Shown: positions 756 through 64,000, numbered from the stretch's first letter. The stretch is DNA of 64,000 bases from Hymenobacter sp. YIM 151858-1 (GCF_025979705.1 NZ_CP110136.1:496001-560000), one strand, 5' to 3'. The notes: a model not told the origin generated them from the sequence alone. Numbers and translations: made by a program.

Positions 756-2504
756 TTACTGCAGCTGCATCTCCCGAATAATCTGCTGAATGCGGCCATC
801 CAGCTGCTGCTGGGCTTGCTCGAAATCGGCGCCGTTGCCGAAGGGCTGCTTCAGGCTGAAGTAGAACTTGATTTTGGGCTCGGTGCCCGAGGGGCGGGCC
901 GATACCTTGGAGCCGTCTTCGGTGAGGAACTGCAGCACGTTGCTGCGCTCCAACTCCAGGGGGCGCTCCTGGCCGGTGCGCAGGTCGCGGGCCACTTGCT
1001 GCTGGTAGTCGAGGAGCTGCACCACGGGCGAGCCACCTAGGGAAGCGGGCGGGTTCTGGCGGAGCTGGGCCATCATTTCCTGAATTTCCTCGGCGCCGCG
1101 CTGGCCTTTTTTGGTCAGCGAAATCAAGTCTTCTTTGTAGAGGCCGTAGGTGCGGTACATCTGCACCATTTCCTCGTACAGCGTGCGGCCCTGGTCTTTG
1201 GCCACGGCGGCCATTTCGGCAATTAGGCAGCAGGCCGAAACGGCGTCTTTGTCGCGCACGAACGAGCCGATCATGAAGCCGTAGCTTTCCTCGCCGCCGC
1301 CAATGTAGTAGTGGCCTTCGTTGCGGGCCTCCAGGTCGCGGATGATGCCGGCAATGTACTTGAAGCCGGTAAGGGTTTGGTAAGAGCGGATGCCGTAGTG
1401 CCGGGCCACGTCGCCGAGCACGTCGCTCGTCACGATGGTGTACACGATGTAATCCTTCTCCTTATCGAGCTGGCCGGCTTGCTGGCGGGCCGATACAAGG
1501 TAGTGCGTGAGCAGCGCGGCGGTTTGGTTGCCGTTCACGAGCACCCACTCGCCATGGGTGTTCTTCACGCCAATGCCTACGCGGTCGGCGTCGGGGTCGG
1601 TGGCAATTACAATGTCGGCATCGAGCTGCTTGGCCTGGTCGAGGGCCATCTGCATGGCTACTTTCTCCTCGGGGTTCGGCGACTTCACCGTCGGGAAGTT
1701 GCCATCGGGCGTGGCCTGTTCCTGCACGATGTGGATGTTGTCGAAGCCGAAGCGCTGCAAGGCCTTGGGCACCATGGTAATGCCCGTGCCGTGCAGCGGC
1801 GTGTACACGATTTTGAGGTCGTGCTGGCGCTTAATGGCATCGGGGTTGATGCTCAGCTTGGCAACTTCGCCTAGGTAAGCATTGTCAAGGTCTTCGCCGA
1901 TGATGTGGATGCGCGACGGATCGGCCTGGAACTTCACCGCATCGACCGATTGAATGGCGTTTACCTCGCGGATGATGTTTTTGTCGTGCGGCGCTACTAC
2001 CTGGGCGCCGTCCTGCCAGTACACCTTGTAGCCGTTGTACTCCTTGGGGTTGTGCGAGGCCGTAACCACGCAGCCGCTGTGGCAGCCTAGGTGCCGAATG
2101 GCAAACGACAGCTCGGGGGTGGGGCGCAGCGCTTCGAACAGGTACACCGTGATGCCGTTGGCCGAGAAAATGCCGGCTGCGGTTTCGGCGAAGGTGCGCG
2201 AGTTCAGGCGCGAGTCGTGGGCAATAGCTACTTTGATTTCCTCGCCGGGGAACTGCTGCAACAGGTAGTTGCACAGGCCCTGCGTAGCCATGCCCAGGGT
2301 GTAGCGGTTCATGCGGTTCGAGCCCACGCCCATAATGCCGCGCAAGCCGCCGGTGCCGAATTCCAGGTCGCGGTAAAAGGCGTCGTTTAGGGCTTCTTCG
2401 TCGCCGCTTTCTTGCAGGCGGCGGATTTCGGCCTTGGTTTCGTCGTCGTAGTTGCCGCTAAGCCAGGTGCTGATTTTTTGCTGGATGTCGGAAGAAAGAG
2501 GCAT
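756..2504 (-). CDS. Phospho-sugar mutase (phosphoglucomutase/phosphomannomutase)
   Basis: A 582-residue alpha-D-phosphohexomutase that interconverts hexose 1- and 6-phosphates in the cytoplasm, feeding glycogen, nucleotide-sugar and envelope glycan synthesis. All four family signatures are visible: catalytic phosphoserine loop TASHNP (Ser150), metal site DPDADR (303-308), sugar-binding GGEES (403-407), and phosphate-binding RPSGTEPK (537-544). The length fits the long bacterial phospho-sugar mutase subfamily. The frame stays open 58 codons upstream, but I chose ATG 2504 (MPLSSDIQQK) because homologues begin there and the extension looks non-coding. Substrate preference (glucose or mannose) cannot be read from sequence. 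Monocistronic, with a hairpin after the stop. Confidence 0.93.
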   Translation of the reverse strand: MPLSSDIQQKISTWLSGNYDDETKAEIRRLQESGDEEALNDAFYRDLEFGTGGLRGIMGVGSNRMNRYTLGMATQGLCNYLLQQFPGEEIKVAIAHDSRLNSRTFAETAAGIFSANGITVYLFEALRPTPELSFAIRHLGCHSGCVVTASHNPKEYNGYKVYWQDGAQVVAPHDKNIIREVNAIQSVDAVKFQADPSRIHIIGEDLDNAYLGEVAKLSINPDAIKRQHDLKIVYTPLHGTGITMVPKALQRFGFDNIHIVQEQATPDGNFPTVKSPNPEEKVAMQMALDQAKQLDADIVIATDPDADRVGIGVKNTHGEWVLVNGNQTAALLTHYLVSARQQAGQLDKEKDYIVYTIVTSDVLGDVARHYGIRSYQTLTGFKYIAGIIRDLEARNEGHYYIGGGEESYGFMIGSFVRDKDAVSACCLIAEMAAVAKDQGRTLYEEMVQMYRTYGLYKEDLISLTKKGQRGAEEIQEMMAQLRQNPPASLGGSPVVQLLDYQQQVARDLRTGQERPLELERSNVLQFLTEDGSKVSARPSGTEPKIKFYFSLKQPFGNGADFEQAQQQLDGRIQQIIREMQLQ

Positions 2505-2708
2505 AGAATGCGAAAGTTCGGGTGGCGTTTGTACGTCAAAGAAAACGGAAGTTTGGATACAGAGCAGCCGGGGCAAGGTAAAGCTCACATTATCATGCGA
2601 TTGAACTGCAGCTGGTTTTTCGCGGACTTGCCGGTACAAAAGCCAGTGCTTTGTGGCAAGCTGGCTTGGTTGCTCCACCGCTGTTCCGTCCTCATTTCCT
2701 TACCCGCT

Positions 2709-2885
2709 ATGAAAACCGCTCACCGCCTCGTCAGCCTGCTCCTGTTTATGCTGCTGGCCTTGCTTGTAGCCCTGCCCTTTGCCGTTGCATTTGCGCAGGC
2801 CCCCGCCAAGGCTGGCAAGCCAGTTGCCCACGCTTCGGCCGCGCAGCTGTGGGCCCGCACCACCGGCCTGCACGGCAATCGGTAG
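2709..2885 (+). CDS. Small secreted peptide, 58 aa
   Basis: ATG 2709 opens a 58-codon frame, diverging from the phospho-sugar mutase gene. Residues about 6-29 are strongly hydrophobic and end VAFAQA, a plausible signal-peptidase site, leaving a mature peptide of roughly 28 residues (KAGKPVAHASAAQLWARTTG). The signal-like N-terminus and the strong hairpin 30 bp after the stop argue that it is a real gene. The family is not recognised, and a leader-like or spurious ORF cannot be excluded. Confidence 0.45.
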   Translation: MKTAHRLVSLLLFMLLALLVALPFAVAFAQAPAKAGKPVAHASAAQLWARTTGLHGNR

Positions 2886-2916
2886 AGCCCCTAGGTGGGC
2901 CTGGGGCCAGCAACAC

Positions 2917-2951: not shown

Positions 2952-2975
2952 GGGCATAAGCAAGGGTAGCGCAAC

Positions 2976-3959
2976 CTAGGGCTGCACCAACATGGTGCGC
3001 GAAACGGTTTGCCCTTCGGTGGTGAGCTGGTAGCGGTACATGCCGCTGCGCAACGAGCCCCGGAACGGCACCGTGTGCGTGCCGGCAGCCCGCTTCTCGT
3101 CGAGGAGGGTGGCCACTACGCGCCCGGTTACGTCGAGCACCGTCAGGCGTACGGGGGCGGCGTGCTGCAGCGTAAAGGTAATGTTGGTTTCGTGGCGGAA
3201 GGGGTTGGGGTAGCTGGGTTGCAGCATGGCCTCGGCCAACTCGGCGTTTTTGCGCGAGCTGGTAATCACCGACGTAACGGCTACTGGGTCGCTGTCGTCG
3301 GCGGTGGCGCTGGTACCTAGGGTGCCGGCCGGGCCGCCCGGCACTTGGTTGGCCACGGTTTGGCCCGTCACGTTTTCAAACTTGTAATACGCCAGCAACG
3401 AGGCCGGCGGGTTGGCCACGCCGCTTTGCATGTCGGTCATGATTTGGCCGCTGCGGTCGTCCTTCCACACCATCACCTCGTCGATATAGCCCTGCCAGCC
3501 CGTATCGCCGGAGTTGTGGCCGATGCCCAGGTTGTTGACGGTGGGCAGCGTCCAGGGGGCTTTGGTGGAGGTGGCTACCTGGGTGCCGTTCACGAACAGG
3601 GCGCCGTTGGTGCCGTCCCAGGTGTAGGCCACGTGCGTCCAGGCGCGCATCGGCACGCGCCCACCCGAAGCCACGTTGTATAACTCGAGCTGGCCCTGGC
3701 TGTTCACGCCAAACCAGGGCGTGTCGTCGCCGAACTCCATAATCGTGTAGCGGCCGGTGCCGCTCGTGTACGAAGTGCCGTTGAAGTAAACCCACGCTTC
3801 CATGGTTACCGCGCCGTTGGGCGCTTGCAAAGGCACCGTTACTTTCGAGGATTTGCTGCTGGTGAAGCTCAGGCAATGGCCGCCTTGCTGAGCGTGTGCG
3901 CCGAAGCTGAGGCCGCTACCCAGTGCGAGGGTAAAGGCAGTGCGAAGAAGTGTTTTCAT
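2976..3959 (-). CDS. LamG-domain secreted protein with T9SS sorting tail
   Basis: A 327-residue exported protein. Residues 1-23 form a signal peptide (MKTLLRTAFTLALGSG then AHA). Residues about 30-215 match a LamG/concanavalin-like jelly-roll domain (GNCLSF-like start HCLSFTSSKSSKV, EAWVYF, WTHVAYTWDG, YIDEVMVWKD, LLAYYKFEN), which usually binds glycans or other proteins. The last ~80 residues are a type-A T9SS C-terminal domain (YPNPF, DVTGRVV, GMYRYQL, final MLVQP), so the protein should be moved across the outer membrane and attached to or released from the surface. I used the internal ATG at 3959; the frame is open 14 codons further. Ligand unknown. Confidence 0.85.
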   Translation of the reverse strand: MKTLLRTAFTLALGSGLSFGAHAQQGGHCLSFTSSKSSKVTVPLQAPNGAVTMEAWVYFNGTSYTSGTGRYTIMEFGDDTPWFGVNSQGQLELYNVASGGRVPMRAWTHVAYTWDGTNGALFVNGTQVATSTKAPWTLPTVNNLGIGHNSGDTGWQGYIDEVMVWKDDRSGQIMTDMQSGVANPPASLLAYYKFENVTGQTVANQVPGGPAGTLGTSATADDSDPVAVTSVITSSRKNAELAEAMLQPSYPNPFRHETNITFTLQHAAPVRLTVLDVTGRVVATLLDEKRAAGTHTVPFRGSLRSGMYRYQLTTEGQTVSRTMLVQP

Positions 3960-4362: not shown

Positions 4363-4395
4363 AAAAAAGCCCCGGCCACCTAGGTGGCCGGGGCT
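4363..4395 (-). terminator. Rho-independent terminator of hppD with CCTAGG at its apex
   Basis: On the minus strand a perfect 28-nt palindrome centred on CCTAGG (AGCCCCGGCCAC with its complement) is followed by six T. It sits 28 bp after the hppD stop codon. Confidence 0.85.
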
Positions 4396-6090: not shown

Positions 6091-6091
6091 G

Positions 6092-6259: not shown

Positions 6260-6610
6260 ATGCTTTACCGCGTAGCCGAGCTATCCGATTGGGAGCAGGC
6301 CCAGCAAACGGGTTATTTCGCCAGCGCCGATTTGCAGGCCGAGGGTTTCATCCATACCTCCGAGCTGCACCAGCTCCTCGAAACCGCCAACCGCTACTAC
6401 CTGGGCCGCGCCGATGTGGTGCTGCTCGAGCTCGACGAAGCGACCCTAGGTGCCGCGGGCGTGTTAGTGAAAAGGGAGTGGGCCGAGAGCCGCGGGCAGT
6501 ACTTCGCGCACGTGTTCGGGCCGATTCCGTTGCGGGCCATTGTGCGGGCCATTGATATGCAGCCCGACCCCGAAGGCCGGTTTCGAATGCCTGCTCAGCT
6601 TGAGGGGTGA
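6260..6610 (+). CDS. DUF952 domain protein
   Basis: A 116-residue cytoplasmic protein matching DUF952 along its whole length: LYRVAELSDWEQAQQTGYF, the hallmark EGFIHTS around residues 29-35, VVLLELDE, and a C-terminal GPIPLRAIVRAIDM. Members are often annotated as glutathione S-transferase-related, but the biochemical role is not established. ATG 6260 sits right after the AT-rich heptad element. No operon partner is apparent: the next gene is 270 bp away behind its own leader. Confidence 0.85.
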   Translation: MLYRVAELSDWEQAQQTGYFASADLQAEGFIHTSELHQLLETANRYYLGRADVVLLELDEATLGAAGVLVKREWAESRGQYFAHVFGPIPLRAIVRAIDMQPDPEGRFRMPAQLEG

Positions 6611-6878
6611 TTTCGTGGTAGCCAACTGAGGTACCTAGGGCCGAAGATATGCCAGCTGCCTCCCGACGGTGGCAACTCGGCTATGTTGTAGAAAACGCAG
6701 AGGTAACCCTGTTGAAACCAAGTATTTTAGGTTGTAATTTAACTATTCTGATATTATCCAAGGTTATACAACGATTGGTCGGGGGCAGATAAAAGCTGTG
6801 GCGTAATCTTGCCGCTGTGCAGCTTCGCTTGGCCGGTAGCGTGCCCGGCAGAGCCGCACACTGCTCTACCTCACGACT

Positions 6879-9323
6879 ATGATACACAACTTACTGAAGG
6901 CAAGCGTTATATCTGGCGTTTTGCTTGGGTTGCCAGGCATCGGCTACGGGCAAATCACCGGCGCGCTTTGGCAAAAGGTACCCGCTCCCGATGCGCTTCG
7001 GGCTGCAACCCCGGGCGGCCACTGGTACGCGCTCGATGCAGCCCAACTTCGCTCGCGCTTAGCACAGGCGCCAGCCGAAACAAGGCCGCAGCAGGCCGTA
7101 CCGCTCGAGCTGCCGTACCCCGATGGCACCCTGCACCGCTTTGCCATTACCCAAGTGCCCGTGATGGAGCCGGCGCTTGCTGCCCGTTACCCGCAGATAC
7201 AGGCCTACGCCGGCCGCGGCATTGATGAGCCGGCCACTACGGTGCGGCTGGAGTGGCTGCCCACCGGACTGCACGCGCAGGTTACCACTCCCCAAGGCGT
7301 GCTGGCCATCGGTACCGAAGCCCAGACGCCTGGCCGCTACCAAAGCCGCCAGCAAACCCCTGCTGAGTTCAGCTGCCAAGCCATTGAGCTGCCCGGCAAC
7401 GGTGCCCGCCCCGCGGGCGGTGCGCCCCCAACCGCGCCGGCTCCTTACGGAACGCAGCTGCGTACGCTGCGCCTGGCACTGGCCGCCACCGGCGAATACG
7501 TGCAAAGCCTGGGCGGCGGCAGCGTTGCCGGTGCCCTGGCCAGCATGGTTACGCTCGTCAATAACATCAATGCGGTGTATGAGCGCGACTTATCGATGCG
7601 CTTGCAGCTGGTAGCCGATACGGATAAGCTTATCTACCTCGATGCCAACTCCGACCCCTACGATAACGGCAGTCCATCGGCGCTGATGAACGCCAACGAT
7701 GCGGTGGTGAATAGCGCCCTAGGTGCTGGCACATACGATATCGGGCACGTGCTGGGCTACCGCTCGGGCGGGTATTCGGGCGTGGCGTACGTGGGCGTAG
7801 TGTGCTCCTCTACGCGCCCGGCCGGAGGTTCATCCACGGGCGCGTCGGCCGGGCTGATGGCTACCGTGGTAACGCACGAAATCGGGCATCAGCTGGGCTC
7901 TGGCCATACCTTCAACGGCGACAAAGGCAATTGTGGGAGCGGCAACCGCAGCGCCAGCCTGGCTTACGAGCCCGGCGCTGGCAACACCATCATGTCGTAC
8001 GATTCGCGTTGCGCCCCCGATAACGTAGGCAGCGCCGTGCGGTACTTTCATGCCGGCAGCATCAGCGCCATAATGGGGCGGCTGCGCTGCGGTACCCTCA
8101 CGGCCAACGGCAACAGCGCGCCCAGCGTAAGCGTGCCGCCCAGCGGCTACGTCATTCCAAAGGGCACCCCGTTTACCTTGGAGGGCAGCGGCTCGGACTC
8201 CGACGGTGACGCCCTGGGGTATTCGTGGGAGCAGCTGGACCTAGGCGACCCCAGCGGCCTGGACGGCGCCGCTACCGATGTTTCGGGCCCGCCGCTGTTT
8301 CGCAGCTTTGCACCGCAGCCGAGTCCTGCGCGCACTTTCCCAAGCATGGCGGCCGTGCTTTCGGGCAGCTCGTCGCTAGGCGAAATACTGCCGCTGGTGG
8401 CGCGTACGCTCAACTTCCGCCTCACTGCCCGCGACAACCGGGGCGGGGTAGCAGCCGCCAATACGGCCCTAACCGTAGCCGATGCCGGGCCATTTAGTGT
8501 AACGGCTCCGAACACGGCCCTGACGCTGGCACCGGGTAGCACCTATACCCTCAATTGGAACGTGCTCGGTACCAACCAGGTACCCGTAAACTGCACCAAC
8601 GTGCAGGTACTGTTTTCGGCCGATGGGGGCAATACTTTCCCTACGGTGCTGCTGGCCAGCACGACCAACGATGGCAGCGCCGAAATACAGCTACCTAGGC
8701 TCAACACCACGAAAGGACGCCTGAAAATTCAGGCCGTCAACAACGTCTTTTTCGCCGTCAACAACGCCAACATTACGCTGGCTGGCACGCTACCGGTGGA
8801 GCTAACGGCTTTTCGGGCCGAAGCGCGGGGTGGCGTGGCGCACTTGTCGTGGACTACCGCGCTGGAGCGGAACAACCAAGGTTTTGCGGTAGAAGCTGCC
8901 TTCGACGGCGTCAGCTTTCGGCGGGTAGGGTGGGTGCCGGGGCGGGGCAATAGCACGGTTGCCACCTCGTACCAGTACGCCGACAACGGCCTGAGCGGCT
9001 ACGGCGCTACCACCGTGTACTACCGCTTGCGCCAGATCGACCAAGACGGCACCGAAACCGTTTCGCCAGTCCAAATCGTGGTTCTAACTCCCGCTGCTAC
9101 TCCTGGTTTGCAGCTTTGGCCTAACCCCGTGCATGAGCGCGTAACGGTTTCCGGGCCCGCCCCCGGGCAGCCCCTGTACCTGCTCGATCTTACGGGGCGA
9201 GTAGTGCTGCGTACCACGCTACCCGCTTCCGGAACCTTAGAGCTGCGCTTGCCCGCCGGCTTGCCGCAGGGCGTGTACATGGTGCGGAATGGGGCAGCGT
9301 CGGGGCGACTTATCGTTCAATAA
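6879..9323 (+). CDS. Secreted zinc metalloprotease with T9SS sorting tail
   Basis: An 814-residue exported protein. The signal peptide ends near IGYGQ (residue 25), followed by a propeptide-like region (~30-190). The catalytic domain resembles reprolysin/M12B-type metzincins: HEIGHQLGSGH at 333-343 supplies three zinc histidines (333, 337, 343), and NTIMSYDSR (369-377) gives the Met-turn. Next come Ig-like/PKD-type segments, the LPVELTAF...YYRLRQIDQDG module common before T9SS tails, and a type-A sorting domain (LWPNPVHE, DLTGRVVL, GVYMV, final RLIVQ). Predicted role: an extracellular endopeptidase anchored or released by T9SS. Substrate unknown. Confidence 0.9.
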   Translation: MIHNLLKASVISGVLLGLPGIGYGQITGALWQKVPAPDALRAATPGGHWYALDAAQLRSRLAQAPAETRPQQAVPLELPYPDGTLHRFAITQVPVMEPALAARYPQIQAYAGRGIDEPATTVRLEWLPTGLHAQVTTPQGVLAIGTEAQTPGRYQSRQQTPAEFSCQAIELPGNGARPAGGAPPTAPAPYGTQLRTLRLALAATGEYVQSLGGGSVAGALASMVTLVNNINAVYERDLSMRLQLVADTDKLIYLDANSDPYDNGSPSALMNANDAVVNSALGAGTYDIGHVLGYRSGGYSGVAYVGVVCSSTRPAGGSSTGASAGLMATVVTHEIGHQLGSGHTFNGDKGNCGSGNRSASLAYEPGAGNTIMSYDSRCAPDNVGSAVRYFHAGSISAIMGRLRCGTLTANGNSAPSVSVPPSGYVIPKGTPFTLEGSGSDSDGDALGYSWEQLDLGDPSGLDGAATDVSGPPLFRSFAPQPSPARTFPSMAAVLSGSSSLGEILPLVARTLNFRLTARDNRGGVAAANTALTVADAGPFSVTAPNTALTLAPGSTYTLNWNVLGTNQVPVNCTNVQVLFSADGGNTFPTVLLASTTNDGSAEIQLPRLNTTKGRLKIQAVNNVFFAVNNANITLAGTLPVELTAFRAEARGGVAHLSWTTALERNNQGFAVEAAFDGVSFRRVGWVPGRGNSTVATSYQYADNGLSGYGATTVYYRLRQIDQDGTETVSPVQIVVLTPAATPGLQLWPNPVHERVTVSGPAPGQPLYLLDLTGRVVLRTTLPASGTLELRLPAGLPQGVYMVRNGAASGRLIVQ

Positions 9324-9475: not shown

Positions 9476-10045
9476 TTACTTCACCGCAATGGGCAGCTCC
9501 ATGGTTTCCCAGCGCAGCACCACGCCGGGGCTGGTAACGGTGTAGGCGAGGCGCTCCATCATGGCGGCTTTGCGCGGCGTTACGGTTACGCGCAGCGCAT
9601 CCTGGGCCTGGTCGTACTTGTAGGCGCCCCACTGGTTGGCGGTTTTGTTGAAGATAACCGTCCAGGCTTGCTCCGTAGGGATTACGAAGAACGAATACGT
9701 GCCGGCGGCCAGCGGCTTGCCCTCCACCGTAACGGGCTTGTCGAAGGTGATGGTGGTGGCCTCGTTGGCGCCGGCCCGCCACACCTGGTTGTAAGGCACC
9801 AGCTCGCCCCAGATTTTGCGGCCTTTTACCGCCGGGCTGCTGTACTTGATGGTAACGTTGGCCTTGCCGGCCTTGCCGGTGGCCGTAGCTGCCGGGCTGG
9901 GCTTGGCCTGGTCCTGGTTAGTGGCAATGGCATCCATAACCATAGGCCGGCGTGCGGGTTCGTCTTGCGCCACGGCGGGCAGAGTAGCTAGCGTGCCTAG
10001 GTTGATAAGTGCCAGCGAGAGCACCAAGTAGGGTTGAACTTTCAT
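9476..10045 (-). CDS. DUF2911 family secreted protein
   Basis: A 189-residue protein with a signal peptide (MKVQPYLVLSLALINLGTLA, cleavage near AVAQ). The mature region fits DUF2911 as found in Bacteroidota: IKYSSPAVKGRKIWGELVPY, VWRAGANEATTITFDKPV, GTYSFFVIP, WTVIFNK, WGAYKY. These proteins are probably periplasmic or surface beta-sandwiches of unknown function. ATG 10045 was preferred to the upstream in-frame TTG/ATG because it starts the signal peptide. Divergent from the lipoprotein gene at 10170, sharing a 124-bp intergenic promoter region. Confidence 0.85.
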   Translation of the reverse strand: MKVQPYLVLSLALINLGTLATLPAVAQDEPARRPMVMDAIATNQDQAKPSPAATATGKAGKANVTIKYSSPAVKGRKIWGELVPYNQVWRAGANEATTITFDKPVTVEGKPLAAGTYSFFVIPTEQAWTVIFNKTANQWGAYKYDQAQDALRVTVTPRKAAMMERLAYTVTSPGVVLRWETMELPIAVK

Positions 10046-10169: not shown

Positions 10170-11018
10170 ATGCGTCTTTCTACTCCGCTACTTCTCCTAG
10201 GTGCCTGCTTGCAATTGGGCGGTTGTGTGCCGCAGTACCACATTGCCCTGAAGCCCGCCAGCAATGCCACACGCTGGGAAGGCGGTTTAGAAATGGTTTC
10301 CGACGAGGCTGATAGCGTGGAAGTGAGCATGGCCGCGGCTTCCACGGCCGGCAACTTTCTCGAGTTCGATGTAACGCTGCGCAACCGCAGCGCGCGCGCC
10401 GTGGTGGTGGCGCCCGAACAGTTTTACCTGCTGGCCAGCTTTCCGCCGGCTGCCACGCCCAACGCTGCCGCTGCGGTTGGCCCGGTGCGCGTACCGGCCA
10501 TCGACCCCGAAGAAACCATCCGGCAGCTGCAGCTAAGCGCGGCTTTCCACGAGAAGAAATCCACGGCCATTCCGGCGGTCGAAATCCTTTCCGGCATCAA
10601 CGAAATAGCCCAGGACCTAAGCAGCCGCAAGCGCAAAGAAACCGACGCCCAGCGCGACGCCCGCAACGCTGCTTACCACGCCGAAATGAACGGCTATCAG
10701 CAAGAGCGCACCGACCACGCCGTGCGCGCCGCCGCCCTCCGCGACGAGCTGCGCGCCACCGAAACCGACCTGCTGCGCAAAACCACCCTCGACGCGGGCT
10801 TTGCCGTGCGCGGCCGCGTGCGGTTTTTGCGCACCGCCGATGCCGCCGACCGCCTACGCGTGGTGCTGCCGGTGGGCGGCCGCGCGCTGGCTGCCGAGTT
10901 CACGCAGTTCCGCTACCGCCCCAACGGCTACCAGCCCGCCACGGCCCAGGCGGCACCTAGGGCGCTGCCGGCCGTTAGTCAACCAGCTCCGCCAGCTCCA
11001 GCCACCGCTCGCCCTTAG
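10170..11018 (+). CDS. Lipoprotein of unknown function
   Basis: ATG 10170 starts a typical lipoprotein signal (MRLSTPLLLLGACLQLGGC) with the lipobox Cys at residue 19. The 282-residue product has a beta-rich N-terminal part (FLEFDVTLRNRSARAVVV, EQFYLLAS), a charged helical middle (~150-215, rich in Arg/Glu/Ala), and a C-terminal beta part (GFAVRGRVRFLRTADAADRL). It is not a family I recognise. Its last 44 bases overlap, antiparallel, the 3' end of the ABC-F gene. Probably anchored in the periplasm or outer membrane. Confidence 0.75.
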   Translation: MRLSTPLLLLGACLQLGGCVPQYHIALKPASNATRWEGGLEMVSDEADSVEVSMAAASTAGNFLEFDVTLRNRSARAVVVAPEQFYLLASFPPAATPNAAAAVGPVRVPAIDPEETIRQLQLSAAFHEKKSTAIPAVEILSGINEIAQDLSSRKRKETDAQRDARNAAYHAEMNGYQQERTDHAVRAAALRDELRATETDLLRKTTLDAGFAVRGRVRFLRTADAADRLRVVLPVGGRALAAEFTQFRYRPNGYQPATAQAAPRALPAVSQPAPPAPATARP

Positions 11019-12940: not shown

Positions 12941-12984
12941 AAAAGTGCACGCCCGCACAACCCGGCCCCTAGGTCGGCCATACG

Positions 12985-51550: not shown

Positions 51551-51579
51551 GTGCCTAGGGCTTTGTAAGCGTCAAGTGC

Positions 51580-52059: not shown

Positions 52060-52082
52060 TTCTTCCGGAAAGTGGCCCTAGG

Positions 52083-53281: not shown

Positions 53282-54037
53282 TTACCAGTCGGCGGTAGGG
53301 TCGAGGCGGAATACCTCGGCCATTTCGTCGAGCAGGGGCTGCAGGTGCTCGGTATGCTCGCCGTGGCGGCCGCCGTACACCGGCGCAACGGTGGCGAGGT
53401 CGGGCAGCTCGAGGTTGGTTTGCGCCAATACTTTGCTGATGCTCTCCAGCCACTGCGCCTTCAGCGCGTCTTCGCCCGCGAAAACGCCATCGGCAATAAT
53501 GGCCTCCTCGTGCTCGGTTTTCTCGAACAGACCTAGGGCGTAGGGGAGGGTTTCGTTCAGTGCCGTCTGCAGCTTCTCGATGGCCTCCTCGGTGCTGGTG
53601 CCCAGCTGCTTTACCCAGGTGTTGGCGTGCAGCACGTGGTACTTCAGCTCGCCCTTCAGCTTGCGCGCTACCTGCGCCAGGGGCTCGTACGAGCTGGTAG
53701 CCAGCAGCTGAAAGCGCAGCAGCTCGGCGTGATCGTAGAGGAAATGGCGGATGAGGCTGAAAGCGTAGTCGCCGATGGGCAGCTCCACCAGCTGCGAGCA
53801 GTGAAACTGCGGCGCGTTGCGCGTAAACGCCACCGTGTCGGGCTCGGCCTCGCCCAGGTTGTGCAGCAAGGTGTAGAGCTGCAGCGAGTGGCCCAGCTTG
53901 TCCTGCGCCATCGACGAGAAGGCAATGTCCTCTTCCAGAATCGGACCCAGGCCGTTCCACTCGGAGTTGCGGTGACCTAGGATCAACTGGTCGTCGGCGA
54001 GGCGGTAGAGCAGGTCTTTGAGCGCGGTGGTGTTCAT
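53282..54037 (-). CDS. paaC: 1,2-phenylacetyl-CoA epoxidase structural subunit PaaC
   Basis: A 251-residue ferritin-like subunit forming the PaaAC heterodimer. Helical motifs DDQLILGHRNSEWNGLGPIL, EDIAFSSMAQDKLGHSLQLY, IRHFLYDHAELLRF and LKGELKYHVLHANTW match PaaC. PaaC has the fold but not the active diiron centre. Normal length. ATG 54037; a further 7 codons are open upstream. Between paaB and paaD in the minus-strand operon. Confidence 0.93.
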   Translation of the reverse strand: MNTTALKDLLYRLADDQLILGHRNSEWNGLGPILEEDIAFSSMAQDKLGHSLQLYTLLHNLGEAEPDTVAFTRNAPQFHCSQLVELPIGDYAFSLIRHFLYDHAELLRFQLLATSSYEPLAQVARKLKGELKYHVLHANTWVKQLGTSTEEAIEKLQTALNETLPYALGLFEKTEHEEAIIADGVFAGEDALKAQWLESISKVLAQTNLELPDLATVAPVYGGRHGEHTEHLQPLLDEMAEVFRLDPTADW

Positions 54038-55041: not shown

Positions 55042-56040
55042 TTAGGCCAGAGGCCGCACGTGCTTGGCGGCTTGCTGCTTGGCCTGCAGAGCCCGGCGTA
55101 CCCAGGCTCCGTTTTCTTCGGCGGCGCGGCGCACCGCCAGGCGTTCTTTGTTGCAGGGGCCGTCGCCGTTAATCACGCGGCGCAGCTCGTCCCAATCCGG
55201 CTCGGTGTATTCCCACTTGCCGGTTTCTTCGTTCTTGCGCAGTTTGGGGTCGGGGATGGTAAGGCCGATTTCCAGAATCTTCGGCACGTACATGTCGAGG
55301 AATTGCTGGCGGCAATCGTCGTTCGAGGCCATCTTCACCTTCCAGCGCATCAGGATTTCGGTGTGCTGGCTCATTTTGTCGGCCGGCCCGAAGAACGTCA
55401 TGATGGGCGGCCACCAACGGTTCAGGGCTTCCTGCATCATGCGGCGCTGCGTGGGCGTGCCGGTGGCCATGTGCACCACGGCATCGTGGCCGTACTTCAG
55501 GTGAAACGACTCCTCGGCGCAAATCCGCTCCAGGGCGCGGCAATACGGGCCGTACGAGCCTTTGGCGTTGGCCATTTGGTTTACGATGGCACCCGCGTCG
55601 ATCAGCCAGGAAATTACGTTTGAGTCGGCCCAGGTCGGCGTGGGGTAGTTGAAGACGTTGGAGTACTTCGACTTGCCGTTGATCAGGTCCGTAATCATGT
55701 CCTCGCGCGTCTTACCTAGGGTTTCGGCGGCCGAGTACAGCAGCTGGGCGTGGCCCACTTCGTCCTGCACCTTGGCCATCTGGGCCATTTTGCGGCGGAA
55801 GCCCGGCGCACGGGTAATCCAGGTGCCCTCGGGTAAGGAGCCGATGATTTCGGAGTGCGCGTGCTGCTCAATCATGCGAATGAGCTGCTTGCGGTAGAGC
55901 GCCGGCATGTAGTCGTCGGGCTCGATTTTCTCGCCGCGGGCAATGCGGGCCTCAAACTCGGCCAGCAGTTGCGGGTCTTCGTTTTCGAGGCCGGTGGTTG
56001 CCTGCGCCGGGATATCGTGGGTGCTGACGGAGCCGTACAT
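55042..56040 (-). CDS. paaA: 1,2-phenylacetyl-CoA epoxidase catalytic subunit PaaA
   Basis: A 332-residue diiron monooxygenase that epoxidises the ring of phenylacetyl-CoA in the cytoplasm. Ferritin-like metal motifs: [18 protein letters not shown] and [16 protein letters not shown], plus [18 protein letters not shown] and [13 protein letters not shown], all typical. C-terminal [20 protein letters not shown] is conserved. Length is normal (309-335). ATG 56040, 30 bp after the tetR stop, so tetR-paaA are surely co-transcribed. Confidence 0.96.
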
Positions 56041-56712: not shown

Positions 56713-56964
56713 TTGCTTTTTTTGCAAACGATTGCAGAGGGCTTTGTGCGAAGGCGTTTGGGTAAGGCAACATGTAAGCTATTACAAGCTCAGCCTGACG
56801 TTCAGGAAACGTAAAATGCCTTTTCAGGCACAACCTCATTCAGCTTGAACAATGGAGGCGAGCCGCGCAGCCTCTGCGGTGGCCGACTGCCTAGGTCGAT
56901 GGGGCTGGCCGCACGCAAAACAGGCGAAGTGTTTGGGCATTGGCACAAAAACACCGCCGGGGGC
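56713..56964. other. Remaining divergent intergenic region, paa operon and thiL
   Basis: No supported ORF. The paa side is AT-richer and presumably holds the minus promoter. A TTGG at 56940-56943 is spaced 21 bp from the thiL -7 box. One CCTAGG at 56890. Confidence 0.35.
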
Positions 56965-56999: not shown

Positions 57000-58043
57000 A
57001 TGTCAGAACAAGTCACCCCGCTTAATCAAGTCGGCGAAATCGGCCTGATTCGCCTGATCCAGGATACCATCACGCTGCACCAGCCCAGCACGGTGCTCGG
57101 CATCGGCGACGATGCCGCCATTATTGCGCCGCCCGCCGAGCACGAGGTGGTCGTCAGCACCGATTTGCTGGTGGAGGGCGTCCACTTCGACCTGATGTTC
57201 TGCCCCCTGAAGCACCTAGGCTACAAGGCCGTGGCCGTGAACGTATCGGACATTGCGGCCATGAATGCGCTGCCCACCCAGATTACCGTGAGCCTGGCCT
57301 TGCCGGCGCGCTTTTCGGTGGAAGCCGTGCAAGAGTTTTACGAAGGCGTGCGCCTGGCCTCGGAGGCGTACCGCGTCGATGTAATCGGCGGGGATACCAC
57401 GGCCTCGCGCGCGGGCTTGGTTATTTCGGTAACCGCCATGGGCACCGTAGCCCGCGGCAAAGCCGTGCGCCGCAGCGGGGCCAAGGTAAACGACCTGCTT
57501 TGCGTAACCGGCGACCTGGGCGGCGCCTACCTCGGCCTGCAAATTCTGGAGCGCGAAAAACAAGCTTACCTCGCCGACCCCGAAACTCAACCCAACCTGG
57601 CGCCCTACGACTACGTGGTGCAGCGCCAGCTGCGCCCCGAAGCCCGCATGGATGTGGTGCACATGCTGCACGAGATGGAGGTGGTGCCCACCAGCATGAT
57701 TGATATTTCCGACGGGCTGGCATCCGAAATAATGCACCTGTGCGCGGCCTCGGGCGTGGGCGCCACCATCTTCTCCGACCGCCTGCCTGCCGACCAGCAG
57801 GTGTACGACGTTGCCGACGAGTTCCGCCTCGACCCAGTGATGTGCGTACTCAACGGCGGCGAAGACTACGAGCTGCTTTTCACCGTACCGCTCGCCGATT
57901 TCGACAAGCTCAAGAACCACCCCGACATCACCATCATCGGCAAAATAACGGAGGCTTCGGAAGGCGCTATTCTGGCCACCAAGGGCGGCAACGCCGTGCC
58001 GCTGCGGGCGCAGGGCTGGTCGCACTTCGGCAAGCAGCAGTAA
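57000..58043 (+). CDS. thiL: Thiamine-monophosphate kinase
   Basis: A 347-residue ATP-dependent kinase making thiamine diphosphate. PurM/AIR-synthase fold motifs: EIGLIRLIQDT, GIGDDAAIIAPP (metal Asp pair), VVSTDLLVEGVHFDLMF, KAVAVNVSDIAAMNALP, DVIGGDTTAS, VTGDLGGAYLG, SMIDISDGLASEIMHLC, VLNGGEDYELLFTV. All conserved. ATG 57000 chosen, with a -7 box upstream; 20 further codons are open but Arg-rich. Ends in a perfect palindromic terminator. Confidence 0.96.
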   Translation: MSEQVTPLNQVGEIGLIRLIQDTITLHQPSTVLGIGDDAAIIAPPAEHEVVVSTDLLVEGVHFDLMFCPLKHLGYKAVAVNVSDIAAMNALPTQITVSLALPARFSVEAVQEFYEGVRLASEAYRVDVIGGDTTASRAGLVISVTAMGTVARGKAVRRSGAKVNDLLCVTGDLGGAYLGLQILEREKQAYLADPETQPNLAPYDYVVQRQLRPEARMDVVHMLHEMEVVPTSMIDISDGLASEIMHLCAASGVGATIFSDRLPADQQVYDVADEFRLDPVMCVLNGGEDYELLFTVPLADFDKLKNHPDITIIGKITEASEGAILATKGGNAVPLRAQGWSHFGKQQ

Positions 58044-58094: not shown

Positions 58095-58110
58095 CTGGTG
58101 GGTACCTAGG

Positions 58111-58485
58111 TTAATCCTCGGGGTAGGGCACGAACACGAACTTCGTGAACTCCCCATCAACCACGAACAGACAGCAGAACTCGTCGGGGTCTTTGTAGGC
58201 GCGCTGAAAGTCCTCGACGTGCTCGGGCGAAATCACGCCTTGCTGCACGAAAATGTCGAGGTACGAGGCTAGCACGTACCACTCGGTTTCCATCTCGTCG
58301 GGCGAGATGAGCAGCGAGCCGAAAGGCACAGGTATGCGCGCGAACACGAAGATGGGGTGCTTCGAAATGTCGCGGCGCCGGATCTGGTACGAGGCTTCCT
58401 TGAGGGTGTCGGCTACTACGGCAAAGTCCTTGGTGATGGTGCCGAGGTATTTGCCGCTCAGCTCGGGGTCGTTGGCGTAATCCAT
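58111..58485 (-). CDS. Conserved hypothetical protein, 124 aa
   Basis: No signal or membrane segment. Alternating helix and strand: DYANDPELSGKYLGTITKDF, TLKEASYQIRRRDISKHPIF, VPFGSLLISPDEMETEWYVL, then acidic VEDFQRAYKDPDEFCCLFVV and FTKFVFVPYPED. It looks like a compact cytoplasmic domain seen in many Cytophagales; I do not know a role. ATG 58485, 30 bp after the acyltransferase gene on the same strand, so an operon is likely. Confidence 0.75.
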   Translation of the reverse strand: MDYANDPELSGKYLGTITKDFAVVADTLKEASYQIRRRDISKHPIFVFARIPVPFGSLLISPDEMETEWYVLASYLDIFVQQGVISPEHVEDFQRAYKDPDEFCCLFVVDGEFTKFVFVPYPED

Positions 58486-58515: not shown

Positions 58516-59616
58516 TTAAACAGCCTTTTGGTAGGTCGGCTTGGGGGCAAAGCGGTCGGCCACTTTTTTACCCAAGCGAATCGCCGGCCGCTCGACCAAT
58601 ATGTTAAAGATGGTGGAGGCAACGAGGGTTCCGACTACCACGAAGGCCAGCAGTATCCAGTACACGCGCCGCTCGCCGCCGATCAGGGAGGCAAGATAAT
58701 CCCAGCGGTCCATCACGAAGATGACGAACAGCCAGTGCAGCAAGTAGAGGCTATACGAAATGCGACCCAGGAACAACAGCGGGCGGATGGTGAGCAGGCG
58801 TTGCAGCTGCGGCTGGTTGATAACCAGCGCCAGAATAGCCCCTGCGGCCAGGCCCGTAAAGTGAAACAAATCGAGGCGGAACAGGCCCAGCCAATAATTC
58901 GCGACGTCGCCCAGGGGGTAAATGCGCGTAATGTGCCGAATGGAATACAGCGCGAAAATCAGCACGTAAATCCCGTAGCGGTACGGGTACCAGCGGGCTT
59001 TTTTGATGTCGTACTGCTCGATGTCGCGGAAATAGTACGTGAGCAGCATGCCCAGCCCAAAATGCAGCACGGCCCAGCTGATGGTGCCGGTGGCCAGAAT
59101 CACCGCCATCAGGCTCACGAATAGAACGCGGCTGTTGCGCAGCAGCAAGGTCAGGAATGGCACCAGCAACGACACCACCATTTCAACTTCGAGCGTCCAG
59201 GCCGGCAGGTACAAATCGTGCTTGCCCCTGATCAGCAAAGCCTCTTCAACCCAATGGGTTTCGTTGGTAACGAATTGGCGCACCAGCAGCCCTAGGTCAT
59301 CGGCGCGGTGGTTGTAGAGGTAGTACAGGGCCAGCGCCGCCAAAAAGGGCACGTACAGGCGCACGATGCGGTTGAGCACAAATTGCCGGAAGTGGGAGCC
59401 GTTAATCTTTACCGACTCGTCGGGGTGGAAGTACTTCCACGATAACACCAGGCCGCTAAGCACAAAAAACAGCGAAACCGCGTCGCTGCCGTTGAACACC
59501 ATCGAACCCAGTTTGTAACTTAGGGTTTCGGCCCAGCGCCAACCGATAAAGTGATAAATCATCACGGAGAAGGCCGCCAGGCCTCTCACACTATCCAGAT
59601 ACTCAACTCGACGCAT
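58516..59616 (-). CDS. Acyltransferase 3 family membrane protein (OafA/YrhL-like)
   Basis: A 366-residue integral membrane O-acyltransferase with about ten hydrophobic helices. Family start VEYLDSVRGLAAFSVMIYHF with the usual R/H pair, VSLFFVLSGLVLSWKYF, FVLNRIVRLYVPFLAALALY, YLPAWTLEVEMVVSLLVPFL (catalytic-region pattern), and ISYSLYLLHWLFVIF. These enzymes acylate sugars of surface polysaccharides or other envelope molecules; the substrate cannot be predicted. ATG 59616. Confidence 0.9.
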   Translation of the reverse strand: MRRVEYLDSVRGLAAFSVMIYHFIGWRWAETLSYKLGSMVFNGSDAVSLFFVLSGLVLSWKYFHPDESVKINGSHFRQFVLNRIVRLYVPFLAALALYYLYNHRADDLGLLVRQFVTNETHWVEEALLIRGKHDLYLPAWTLEVEMVVSLLVPFLTLLLRNSRVLFVSLMAVILATGTISWAVLHFGLGMLLTYYFRDIEQYDIKKARWYPYRYGIYVLIFALYSIRHITRIYPLGDVANYWLGLFRLDLFHFTGLAAGAILALVINQPQLQRLLTIRPLLFLGRISYSLYLLHWLFVIFVMDRWDYLASLIGGERRVYWILLAFVVVGTLVASTIFNILVERPAIRLGKKVADRFAPKPTYQKAV

Positions 59617-59811
59617 ACGCAGCGTGGCTCACAGATACTGCCAGCGCGCTATCTGCCCGCTGTTTATCCGCCAAAAATCCGCAGAATTTCCGGGTATAGC
59701 GTATGGGCCGCTGCACATATCTGCTGCACAGCCGAATTGGTTGCTACGGGAGCTGCCCGGTTGGTCGCCGCACCCGGCGGCACCATTCCCTAGGTTGGGC
59801 GGCAAGGCGTG

Positions 59812-60922: not shown

Positions 60923-62335
60923 CTACTTCAGCTCCAGCAGCACCACATTCTCCACGTGGTGGGTGTGCGGGAACATATCTACCGGCTGCACGCGCGTTAC
61001 GCGGTAGGTGTCGGCCAGCAACTCTAGGTCGCGGGCTTGGGTAGCGGGGTTGCAGCTCACGTACACTACGCGCGGGGCGCGCAGCTCGATGAGGCGGTTT
61101 ACCACATCTGCGTGCATGCCGGCGCGGGGCGGGTCGGTGATGATGACGTCGGGGCGACCGTGCTCGTCGGTAAATTCCTTGGTGAGCACGTCCTTCATGT
61201 CGCCGGCGTAGAACTTGGTGTTCTGCACGCCGTTGATTTCCGAGTTCAGCTTCGCGTCTTCAATGGCCTGCGCCACGTACTCCACGCCGATTACCTTGCG
61301 GGCCTGCTTGGCCACGAAGTTGGCAATGGTGCCGGCGCCGGTGTAGAGGTCGTACACCAGCTCCGTGCCGGTGAGGCCGGCAAAGTCGCGGGCAATTTTG
61401 TACAGCTCGTACGCTTGCTCCGAGTTGGTTTGGTAGAACGATTTCGGCCCCACGCGGAAGCGCAGACCCTCCATCTCCTCGTGGATGTAGGGCAGACCCT
61501 TGTAGCACACCACTTCCAGGCCGTCGAGCGAGTCGTTGCCCTTGTCGTTGAGCACGTAGTTCATCGACGTGATTTCCGGGAACAGCTCCAGCAGGTGGTC
61601 CAGAATAACCGGAATCATCTGGTGCTGGCGGTAGAACGCGGCCACCACCATGATTTCGCCGGTGCTCTTGGCCGTGCGGATGGTGAGCGTGCGCAGCAAC
61701 CCGGTGTGCTTCATCAGGTTGCCGAAGCGCAGGTTGTTGGTGCGCGCGTAATCGCGGAAGGCCAGGCGAATCTGGTTGCTCGGGTCGGGCTGCAGCCAGC
61801 AGTGCTGGATGTCGATGATCTTATCGAAGCGCGAGGGCAGGTGGTAGCCCAGCACGCGGCGGTCGTACTGCTGCGACTCGTCGGCAATCTGCTCCGAGGT
61901 CAGCCAGCCGTTGTAGCTGAAGGTGTACTCCAGCTTGTTGCGGTAGTAGGTGGTTTCCTTCGAACCCAGAATGGGCATAATCTCGGGCAACTCAACCTTG
62001 CCGATCCGCTGCAGCGTGTCCTCCACCTGTTGCTGCTTGTACTGAAGCTGGGTTTCGTAGCCTAGGTGCTGCCACTTGCAGCCGCCGCAGGTGCCAAAGT
62101 GCATGCAGAAGGGCTGCACGCGCAGCTCCGAGTACTTGTGAAAGTGCACGGGTACAGCCTCCAGAAAGCTCTTTTTCGACTTGGTGATGCGCAGGTCGAC
62201 CACGTCGCCGGGCGCTACGCCCGACACGAAAATGACGAGGTTGTTGTGGCGCACGAGGCACTTGCCCTCGGCTACCATGTCTTGTATTACCACTTCGCGG
62301 AGGTCCTCCGCGGGGATCTTCTTCGGATTGGGCAT
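60923..62335 (-). CDS. rlmD: 23S rRNA (uracil-5)-methyltransferase RlmD/RumA family
   Basis: A 470-residue SAM-dependent methyltransferase. N-terminal TRAM-like RNA-binding part (VIQDMVAEGKCLVRHNNLVI, VAPGDVVDLRI), 4Fe-4S ligands C77, C83, C86 (FCMHFGTCGGCKW) and C179, SAM motif VYDLYTGAGTIANFVA (~328-342), TDPPRAGMHADV (400-411), catalytic Cys428 in VVYVSCNPAT, and C-terminal QPVDMFPHTHHVENV. The exact uridine (U1939 or U747) is not decidable by eye. ATG 62335 chosen; the frame extends 45 codons upstream without family similarity. Confidence 0.94.
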   Translation of the reverse strand: MPNPKKIPAEDLREVVIQDMVAEGKCLVRHNNLVIFVSGVAPGDVVDLRITKSKKSFLEAVPVHFHKYSELRVQPFCMHFGTCGGCKWQHLGYETQLQYKQQQVEDTLQRIGKVELPEIMPILGSKETTYYRNKLEYTFSYNGWLTSEQIADESQQYDRRVLGYHLPSRFDKIIDIQHCWLQPDPSNQIRLAFRDYARTNNLRFGNLMKHTGLLRTLTIRTAKSTGEIMVVAAFYRQHQMIPVILDHLLELFPEITSMNYVLNDKGNDSLDGLEVVCYKGLPYIHEEMEGLRFRVGPKSFYQTNSEQAYELYKIARDFAGLTGTELVYDLYTGAGTIANFVAKQARKVIGVEYVAQAIEDAKLNSEINGVQNTKFYAGDMKDVLTKEFTDEHGRPDVIITDPPRAGMHADVVNRLIELRAPRVVYVSCNPATQARDLELLADTYRVTRVQPVDMFPHTHHVENVVLLELK

Positions 62336-62601
62336 TACTTGATTCACAAGCGCAAAGATAACCCACGGATTTTTGCGGATTTGCCGGAATGCATGGATTT
62401 TAGGCTGCGCCTGCATCCTCGTACCAACCCTTGCCTTAACCCTTGAAGCCCAAGCGATATGCCGGGCCAATGAACCTAGGGCCGTTGTCCCACAGGGCGA
62501 CTAACTGTTCTGCTCAAGCCAACGCTATTTGCTTGGCTCGAAACGAGCAGACGCGGCGACAGAACATGACCACTGCTAAGCCAATGACGACGCTACGCGA
62601 C
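62336..62601. other. Short gap between rlmD and the esterase-like gene
   Basis: No supported ORF or clear hairpin. Two CCTAGG motifs, one (62601-62606) supplying the stop codon of the gene at 62602. Confidence 0.3.
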
Positions 62602-64000
62602 CTAGGGCGCCGCCAGGGCGGGCGAGGAACGCGGCATGAAAATCAGGGCATCGAACTCGCGGCGCAGATTGTGGCGGTTGAAAGGCGCTTTCGATTCGAA
62701 AATGCCTACGTCGCGCAGCAGCAGGTTTTGATAGAGCCATTGCGTGCCGGGCGCCAGGGCGGGGCTGCGCACATCGAGCAACGACAACGGCAGCTTGGCC
62801 GCATGAAAGTAGTACTCGTAGGTGCCCACCGGCGCGGCCGTGGCCTCGGCCCGCACAAAGGTGCTCGTGCTTTGGTCCTCGGCCCGAAACGAGCCTTCGT
62901 GGAAAGCCATGCCCACGGCGAAATACGCCGGGCCGTAGGCGCGGCGCAGCCATTCGCCTAGGTTGCGCTCGGCGCCTTCGCCCTCGGCAGCTACGTGGGC
63001 GTTGTGCGCCCACACCGCCACCTTGGCGCCGGCCAGCTGCCCGCGCAGCCAGTGCACGTTTTCGGCCATGCAAGCATCGCGGTACGCACTGCCGAACACT
63101 TTTTTCAGGCTGATAAATGTGCTGTATTGCTCAATCAGGTGCAGCATCTGGCGCTGCCAGGCCACATCGGGCAGGTCGGTATCGTCGCGCAGTTTGCTTT
63201 GCATCTCGAAACCGCCGCGCAGCTCGGCCAGCTGGCTGCGCAGGGCTTGCAGCGCAGCACCTGGCCGGCTGTCGGCGGCAAACGGGTTCAGGGGCGATTC
63301 GCTTCGGCGCAGCTCTTTCACCTGGTTTTCGATGCGGGTGAGCAGGGCGTGCAGGTCGGTGCGCTTGGCGGGTACTTGCGCGCGCAAGTAGGCAATGGCG
63401 TCGTACGGGTGCTGCATATCCATGCCCAGCAGCTGAATTTTGGTGCTGGCGCGCTCGTTGTGGGTGCGCATCCATTGCACCAGCTCCAGCACCTCGGCGG
63501 TGTTCCACACACCTAGGCTCCGTACCAATTGGCGCACGTCGCCTTCGCCGGTGAGCACGTAGCGGTTGAGGGCCAGGCACGTGCCCATGTTGGCCTCCAG
63601 CACCAGCGCCCGCACGCCTTTTTGCTCTACCAGGTAGCGAAACAAACGGTGCTTTACCTGAAAAATCTCGCGCGAGCCGTGCGTTACCTCGCCCAGGCCG
63701 ATTACCTCGGCCGCGCCTACCAGCTGCCCAAAGGCCGCCAAATAGCGCACGTCGCCGCCATCGGGCTGCACGGTGCGCAGGGGCCGAGCGGCCTGGCGCA
63801 GCCACGCCAGCTCGGCCGCCGTGGGTAGGCCGGCCGCCCTAGGTGGCCGCGGGGTGTAGGGGCGCCCGTTAATAAGCAGCTGCACGTTGTCGATCCAAAT
63901 TGGCTCGCCGCCGTCGAGGCGCACGCCCAGGGCCAGTTGCTTCGCAAACGAGTTGTGCGAAATGGGCACCGAAAGCTCAAAGGCTTGCCAACCGTTGGCC
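62602..64000 (-). CDS. Erythromycin-esterase-family protein, N-terminus beyond window
   Basis: The open frame continues past the right edge (residues ANGWQAFELS precede the GTG at 63969), so the gene is 5'-truncated by the window. The first part (GVRLDGGEPIWIDNVQLLING) resembles a carbohydrate-binding beta-sandwich. Then the EreA/ChaN-like domain: VIGLGEVTHGSREIFQVKHRLF with the conserved Glu-His pair, ALVLEANMGTCLALNRYV, MRTHNE, VAVWAHNAHVA, and YFAVGMAFHEGSF. EreA-type proteins hydrolyse macrolide lactones, but most relatives have unknown substrates, so resistance should not be assumed. The stop TAG lies inside CCTAGG. Confidence 0.85.
   Translation of the reverse strand, partial: ANGWQAFELSVPISHNSFAKQLALGVRLDGGEPIWIDNVQLLINGRPYTPRPPRAAGLPTAAELAWLRQAARPLRTVQPDGGDVRYLAAFGQLVGAAEVIGLGEVTHGSREIFQVKHRLFRYLVEQKGVRALVLEANMGTCLALNRYVLTGEGDVRQLVRSLGVWNTAEVLELVQWMRTHNERASTKIQLLGMDMQHPYDAIAYLRAQVPAKRTDLHALLTRIENQVKELRRSESPLNPFAADSRPGAALQALRSQLAELRGGFEMQSKLRDDTDLPDVAWQRQMLHLIEQYSTFISLKKVFGSAYRDACMAENVHWLRGQLAGAKVAVWAHNAHVAAEGEGAERNLGEWLRRAYGPAYFAVGMAFHEGSFRAEDQSTSTFVRAEATAAPVGTYEYYFHAAKLPLSLLDVRSPALAPGTQWLYQNLLLRDVGIFESKAPFNRHNLRREFDALIFMPRSSPALAAP

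Follow-up and report, generated by a model that had tools for sequence, protein, structure and literature searches.

CCTAGG in a Hymenobacter genome is the core of a directed, highly iterated octamer that may be one of several TpA-centred dialects in Hymenobacteraceae

What maintains 77 copies of a single hexamer, CCTAGG, in 64,000 nucleotides of a bacterial chromosome? The stretch in question, called the window throughout and meant at its full 64 kb, comes from Hymenobacter sp. YIM 151858-1 (NZ_CP110136.1:496001-560000) and corresponds to C1:496001-560000 of a genome of 4.62 Mb in 3 contigs (G000), with a main contig of 4.36 Mb. The initial annotation of the window estimated about 77 copies where chance predicts about 20 and expected the excess to hold against a third-order Markov model. 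We count exactly 77 copies, from 1036 to 63843. Base composition predicts 20.9, Markov models of orders 1-3 predict 13.5, 10.5 and 13.6, and dinucleotide shuffles give 14.0 with a maximum of 26 in 100 shuffles. The order-4 expectation of 65 is no test, as the pentamer CCTAG from which it is calculated is over-represented too. CCTAGG is the top hexamer of the window by maximal-order score and takes up 77 of the 111 CTAG tetramers, the other fifteen NCTAGN words totalling 34. The whole genome contains 5325 copies in 4.62 Mb, about 1150 per Mb. Neither a match to the Markov expectation nor equal use of the Leu codon CTA away from Gly, the two outcomes named beforehand as contrary to the idea, is what we find.

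Selection on the word acts at the level of DNA and works through synonymous codons. As gene proxies we used open reading frames (ORFs) of at least 150 codons in 444 kb of the own chromosome (20 pieces, the motif-poor piece L018 being dropped), and synonymous codons were shuffled within genes for 50 rounds. These genes contain 349 copies, compared to 35.1 ± 5.0 after shuffling, a 10-fold excess. The reading frame is xxC-CTA-GGx for 308 of the 349 copies and CCT-AGG for the other 41, in agreement with the proposal that genic copies mostly encode Leu-Gly and replace synonymous codons. The four sites cited for this frame, SALGAG at 7718, KALGPE at 14889, NALGLS at 32107 and HLGYK at 57215, all read as described. 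CTA is used for 462 of 12254 Leu codons not followed by Gly (3.8%) and for 331 of 1232 Leu codons before Gly (26.9%). Before Gly, its use depends on the previous codon: it reaches 308/643 (47.9%) after a codon with C at its third position, compared to 23/589 for A, G and T combined and 4.0% for G alone. Density is 2.2 copies per kb outside the proxy ORFs and 0.95 inside. Between genes, convergent spacers have the highest density (61 sites in 15.7 kb), followed by spacers between two forward genes (++, 42 in 15.4 kb), divergent spacers (29 in 13.1 kb) and spacers between two reverse genes (--, 23 in 12.4 kb).

CCTAGG had been described as a highly iterated palindrome (HIP). Its iteration, its selection as DNA and its occurrence on both strands are confirmed; its palindromic character is not. 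An A stands on exactly one side of the hexamer in 71 of the 77 window copies. Counted in either orientation, 67 of the 77 are ACCTAGGG (45) or ACCTAGGC (22), and the two palindromic octamers ACCTAGGT and CCCTAGGG occur twice and once. For 1.1 Mb of the own chromosome we treated genic and intergenic copies separately. A single A flank is found for 804 of 875 genic and 300 of 331 intergenic copies, and A on both flanks for 16 and 9 copies, respectively, where independent flanks would give 200 and 76. Taken together, 25 such copies are seen and 276 expected. The same rule holds in the related genomes G010 and G025. Because intergenic copies are free of codon constraint, the direction is a property of the signal itself. 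The unit in this genome is the directed octamer ACCTAGGS, with ACCTAGGT and CCCTAGGG strongly avoided, and these flank statistics rule out a palindromic HIP for the own genome.

ACCTAGGS is found genome-wide 2272 times in forward and 2286 times in reverse orientation, compared to 8 and 11 for a reversed control pattern. This control contains GGATCC, which itself has only 75 copies in the own genome, so that shuffles are the fairer yardstick. Relative to genes there is no bias (270 sense and 275 antisense copies). No replication-strand bias is detected in 0.86 Mb of the 4.36-Mb contig either: the true origin was not located, all possible origins were tried, and the most uneven split over all assumed origins is 475:396. 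A directed word that lies on both strands without strand bias is a feature of DNA uptake sequences.

How far does this signal extend among relatives? Counted genome-wide in a family sample of 150 genomes, CCTAGG reaches 5325-8806 copies in six and 54-876 in the other 144. The six rich genomes are G000, G010 and G025 of one genus (g1) and G058, G079 and G137 of another (g5); the five remaining g1 genomes have 123 to 249 copies. Within a separate phylum sample of 296 genomes, the own genome alone exceeds 734. Intermediate counts are observed for G149 (876), G052 (661), G123 (609) and G067 (574), which may be decaying or rising dialects. The octamers of the six rich genomes, compared in 40 kb each, differ. 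The g1 trio uses ACCTAGGS, G079 the palindromic ACCTAGGT, G058 CCCTAGGG together with CCCTAGGC, and G137 a mixed set in which the two flanks vary almost independently. The full palindromic octamer does hold in G079 and G058. Genome-wide counts of ACCTAGGS are 4558, 4682 and 4831 for the trio, 4541 for G137, 1824 for G079 and 581 for G058.

Words other than CCTAGG were searched in 20-80 kb from each of 30 family genomes and in 21 named loci. G052 and G113 (20 kb each) show a strong CCTACCC, with CCCTACCC as the TA-centred octamer in these local samples. AGGTATAG is strong in G038, G122 and three named Pontibacter loci, and AAGTATAA in two Pontibacter-labelled loci. Both words were counted genome-wide in a third genus, g3, which provides 50 of the 150 genomes and is probably Pontibacter, since named Pontibacter loci bear the same words. 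AGGTATAG is present 2823-5222 times in 12 of the 50 and AAGTATAA 2125-7030 times in 23, with no overlap: the 12 AGGTATAG-rich genomes contain just 276-453 copies of AAGTATAA. The remaining 15 have neither word at 2000 copies or more. Many sampled genomes, e.g. G004, G015, G020, G030 and G035, show no word of comparable strength. Weaker enriched words containing TA, namely GGTAGA in G012, G017 and L180 and TATATA/GGTATATA in G002, may be further dialects. In the literature matches listed, all open-licence papers, none of these words is described for bacteria of this kind.

The words in the family look like dialects of one recognition system. Although a strong word was the reason for including a set and the rule emerged only later, TA is at the exact centre of the top octamer in six of the seven dialect sets, and in the seventh (G052 and G113) the TA-centred CCCTACCC comes second with 29 versus 30 copies. 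Read as two half-sites about TpA, the words are ACCT+SCCT (own genome), ACCT+ACCT, SCCT+SCCT, AGGT+CTAT, AAGT+TTAT and CCCT+GGGT. Like halves are not enriched for the Pontibacter words (AGGT+AGGT 1, CTAT+CTAT 0, AAGT+AAGT 1, TTAT+TTAT 1), and G137 shows unlike and like halves (ACCT+CCCT 22, CCCT+CCCT 10). For the trio and for Pontibacter, one half is strict and starts with A and the other is looser.

Sites are also maintained within a dialect. Pontibacter loci that carry the AGG word are 82-83% identical and share 28-30% of all 7-mers; their AGGTATA sites are kept in 24/27, 17/25, 24/34, 24/37, 17/30 and 24/30 cases, the best pair being L134 to L137 with 24/27 versus 29%. AAGTATA sites are kept in 12/20 and 12/24 cases between AAG-word loci (81% identity; 25% of 7-mers). 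Own CCTAGG sites are kept in G010 (77/105) and G025 (63/94), above the 44-46% for hexamers on average. The annotation had suggested site conservation as a check, and this part of it gives a mixed result, as some other palindromic hexamers are kept equally well. TGCGCA is another enriched hexamer in the window and in several relatives (45 versus 20.9 in the G000 sample), and it is well kept among the own genome, G025 and G010 (0.62-0.68). Of the own sites, 31 could be aligned to the CCTAGG-poor congener G004, and not one of them reads CCTAGG there. The differences affect all six positions and comprise at least 2 bases in 19 of the 31, which makes a single mutational route to these sites unlikely.

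Losses, followed in the window and its flanks as aligned to G025 and G010, show a bias of their own. The own lineage has lost 27 of 109 sites present in G025 and G010, and 21 of the 27 now read CCTGGG/CCCAGG; G025 has lost 17/99, none of this kind, and G010 13/95, with 3 of this kind. T to C changes in nC[T]WG are raised in the own lineage (CTAG 31/218, CTTG 80/373) compared to G025 (2/187, 22/311) and G010 (6/193, 22/312), and are not raised in CTCG or CTGG. These rates have to be read with the overall T to C frequency in mind, which is higher in the own lineage (5.6% versus 3.3% and 4.4%), and with n[AGT]TTG, which is somewhat raised as well (103/1229 versus 62/1179 and 39/1154). Very-short-patch repair converts CTWGG to CCWGG, and the bias appears to resemble it. 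As this bias removes CCTAGG, the word persists against a mutational headwind.

Along the chromosome, apart from motif-poor pieces that look like islands, the sites are spread more evenly than at random. The variance/mean is 0.55 for 44 10-kb bins, again with L018 dropped; for 20-kb bins it is 0.63 in 38 of 40, with two motif-poor bins dropped, and 1.66 with both kept. Period 3 scores 6.0, as the reading frame predicts, and helical periodicity is not convincing, with a score of 2.3 for period 10.5. Several island-like chromosome pieces are poor in the motif, with 4 (L018), 1 (L233), 1 (L268), 4 (L270), 1 (L271) and 4 (L272) copies per 20 kb. A 20-kb sample from each of the two smaller contigs of the own genome (158 and 101 kb, probably plasmids) contains 2 and 0 copies. 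Two of the motif-poor stretches, at L268:26-2205 (G000:C1:3020001-3040000) and L271:9341-10063, carry C5 methyltransferase genes (PF00145), one of them next to a PF12705 nuclease. The other two CCTAGG-rich g1 genomes give no PF00145 match. Both stretches look phage-like, as judged from their ORFs alone.

Between related species a word is present, absent or replaced by another, and the different words share a common centre, which suggests a DNA-reading protein whose specificity would change between species. The explanation that we favour, tentatively and with less than even confidence, is a self-recognition signal that a putative reader would read on duplex DNA in connection with recombination or DNA exchange. 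CCTAGG would then be one dialect of an iterated site with the layout NNN-TA-NNN, often with A first, present in part of the family. One putative reader, a dimer or a two-lobed protein, would bind double-stranded DNA as two half-sites about the central TpA. The use of the sites as a label of the own chromosome for recombination or DNA exchange is a less firm part of this proposal; they would act like uptake or Chi sequences without being members of those families. When the specificity of the reader shifts, old sites would decay and new ones accrue by selection or biased gene conversion, giving rise to dialects. In its full form, the proposal is that some Hymenobacteraceae mark their chromosomes with paired half-sites about TpA (NNNTANNN, in most cases ANNTANNN) for a dimeric or two-lobed, fast-evolving putative reader, and that congeners therefore carry thousands of copies of mutually exclusive words; this is possible, and we do not call it probable. 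A TpA-centred half-site signal of this kind is described in no paper among the literature matches listed.

Several observations weigh against this explanation. No reader protein was found among the families examined, which are methyltransferases, PF00482 and the AddB-like PF12705. An initial A is missing from the words of G058 and of G052/G113, and in G137 like and unlike halves occur together and the flanks are nearly independent. CCATGG, AGTACT, CACGTG and GTGCAC are kept as well as CCTAGG between the own genome and G025 or G010, so that the Hymenobacter conservation figure alone is not strong. There is no local compensation near lost sites (36% and 48%, each versus 35 ± 9%). The two Pontibacter words are never seen replacing each other in place in 43 overlapping comparisons (AAG to AGG 0/16, AGG to AAG 0/27), which at about 3 kb aligned per pair are too few to conclude. 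The type IV pilus/type II secretion platform PF00482 is present in 0 of 21 genomes and in 13 of 14 control genomes. No column of the AddB-like alignment separates 6 CCTAGG-rich from 8 poor genomes.

Among known signals, DNA uptake sequences (DUS in Neisseriaceae, uptake signal sequences, USS, in Pasteurellaceae) share several properties with the own octamer. They are directed and of similar density, they lie on both strands and are scarce on acquired DNA, and those of Neisseriaceae form dialects around a conserved core. The words found here differ from them by a two-fold half-site layout and by the missing platform protein. A type IV pilus platform is expected for Neisseria-type uptake, and its lack in the 21 genomes speaks against this route.

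The next explanation to consider is a methylation site of the HIP type, in which the motif would be the target of an orphan methyltransferase, its modified copies being retained to serve repair, replication or recombination, as has been proposed for cyanobacterial HIP1. The known partners of HIP1 are orphan methyltransferases. The density of CCTAGG lies inside the range of HIPs, and its on/off behaviour between lineages is similar. Passages of Elhai (2015; PMC4390886) give 1000-2000 per Mb for HIPs in general and a range around 500-2500 per Mb; they describe HIP1 (GCGATCGC) as over-represented in most cyanobacteria outside one group, with other HIPs as replacement words in some genomes where HIP1 is low. 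All six rich genomes encode one or more methyltransferases from the three families searched. However, none of these families is present in all six: PF01555 is found in 4, PF00145 in 2 and PF02384 in 5, PF02086 and Eco57I-type enzymes not having been searched. Even the close trio has no family in common, as of the three G010 contains just PF02384 and G025 just PF01555. A shared methyltransferase of PF01555, PF00145 or PF02384 was not found, although different enzymes may have the same specificity. HIPs are palindromes accompanied by orphan methyltransferases, whereas the own word is directed and the two Pontibacter words are plainly non-palindromic, and the one-A flank rule is not explained by a methyltransferase acting on a palindrome. 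HIP1 as the closest analogue stands for the density and fails for the palindrome in the own genome. We regard this explanation as unlikely. Restriction sites are usually avoided rather than enriched. CCTAGG, listed in a passage of PMC1939737 as the hexamer of AvrII/BlnI/XmaJI restriction-modification, is in contrast enriched here.

We likewise hold it unlikely that the word is a nucleoid-organising site, at which a dimeric DNA-binding protein would sit about once per kb and shape or segregate the chromosome. The half-site layout around TpA, the scarcity in the 20-kb samples of the two small contigs and the even spacing apart from islands speak for such a protein. The sites are, however, not oriented with replication in the 0.86 Mb sampled and show little helical spacing, and a wholesale change of the word between congeners is unusual for nucleoid proteins.

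It is improbable that the octamer is Chi proper, which AddAB would read in single-stranded DNA to switch to recombination. Like Chi of RecBCD/AddAB, the own word is a directed octamer that is scarce on acquired DNA, and an AddB-like PF12705 protein of about 1000 residues, named by domain and length only, occurs in all 18 genomes searched, with or without a dialect. Chi is usually marked by replication-strand bias, and none is seen in the 0.86 Mb sampled. The own word also has about five times the density of Chi in E. coli, and two half-sites about TpA suggest that it is read on duplex DNA. Neither the first AddB-like alignment, which covered only the last ~800 residues, nor the second, with the full open frame, tracked the motif. 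Chi is set aside for the missing strand bias and the missing AddB-like signal.

That mutation or repair bias creates the word, e.g. by deamination at CCWGG or very-short-patch repair, is very improbable. A T to C bias in the CTWG context is indeed visible in the own lineage, but it acts in the direction that destroys CCTAGG, as the 21 losses to CCTGGG/CCCAGG show. The spread of differences over the G004 hexamers and the small share of the other NCTAGN words also argue against it. A preference for Leu-Gly as codons or dipeptide, which would fit the frame of most genic copies, is refuted by the synonymous shuffles, the higher density between ORFs and the drop of CTA before Gly to 4% after a codon ending in G. 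As a kind of signal, the own octamer is related to HIPs, to uptake sequences and to Chi, but in this genome it fails a tested feature of each.

The individual sites of the window are as follows, the strand being that of the octamer. ACCTAGGG is found on the plus strand at 1035..1042, 2974..2981, 3315..3322, 6633..6640, 10955..10962, 13458..13465, 27367..27374, 35766..35773, 39787..39794, 39907..39914, 43247..43254, 44050..44057, 45010..45017, 46105..46112, 46821..46828, 50575..50582, 53531..53538, 55714..55721, 62474..62481 and 62600..62607. On the minus strand it is found at 2889..2896, 6444..6451, 7717..7724 (ORF 6879-9323, xxC-CTA-GGx), 12967..12974, 14597..14604, 14888..14895 (ORF 14608-15228, xxC-CTA-GGx), 15706..15713, 18978..18985, 23128..23135, 23875..23882, 25243..25250, 26260..26267, 27675..27682, 31654..31661, 32106..32113 (ORF 31706-33184, xxC-CTA-GGx), 32700..32707, 36644..36651, 41563..41570, 43269..43276, 47827..47834, 47989..47996, 52076..52083, 59290..59297, 59788..59795 and 63837..63844. 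ACCTAGGC lies on the plus strand at 8239..8246, 8693..8700, 20629..20636, 30579..30586, 31222..31229, 36696..36703, 41350..41357, 57214..57221 (ORF 56940-58043, xxC-CTA-GGx) and 63511..63518, and on the minus strand at 1869..1876, 2085..2092, 9995..10002, 15881..15888, 18762..18769 (hairpin, 13 paired bases outside the core), 24838..24845, 26746..26753, 30006..30013, 37987..37994, 43222..43229, 56889..56896, 62060..62067 and 62956..62963. ACCTAGGA occupies 12448..12455, 33199..33206 and 53975..53982 on the plus and 10195..10202 on the minus strand. Sites without orientation are the palindromic ACCTAGGT at 4378..4385 (hairpin tip, 11 paired bases outside the core) and 58104..58111, and, with no A flank, GCCTAGGG at 16997..17004 and 51553..51560, CCCTAGGC at 26686..26693 and CCCTAGGG at 51370..51377.

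Some intergenic copies are located at hairpin tips, namely 4379 and 18763 in the window, L017:6444, L011:7075 and L123:8569, with stems of 11-24 paired bases outside the core. A stem of at least 7 bp outside the core is found at 11 of the 175 intergenic copies, compared to 20 of 1320 control positions between genes, and at 2 of the 437 genic copies. The hairpin share is real but small, and hairpin placement is rejected as a general rule. GATC occurs 89 times in the window where 183 are expected, and GGATCC is nearly absent, with 0 or 1 copies in 5.5-6 Mb each, from g5 genomes such as G111, G071, G093, G101 and G109, which suggests strong avoidance. The ORF at 60923-62470 matches Pfam tRNA_U5-meth_tr and is a 92% match to a protein of Hymenobacter sp. 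15J16-1T3B. Nothing in Rfam matched within the window.

What highly iterated words are for has been a question ever since the description of HIP1 in 1995. Since HIP1 is over-represented in most cyanobacteria, its partner is hard to single out. The dialect pattern is the part that a specialist would not expect: one genus is split into 12 AGGTATAG-rich, 23 AAGTATAA-rich and 15 other genomes, and 6 of 150 genomes in the family are rich in CCTAGG. With congeneric genomes split between words, association with gene content or alleles could name the putative reader. If the half-site proposal is true, a change from words with like halves (ACCT+ACCT, SCCT+SCCT) to words with unlike ones (ACCT+SCCT) would reflect the evolution of the reader from a homodimer to a heterodimer. 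If the words mark self DNA, they would also be relevant to barriers against recombination between species and to the way in which one dialect replaces another.

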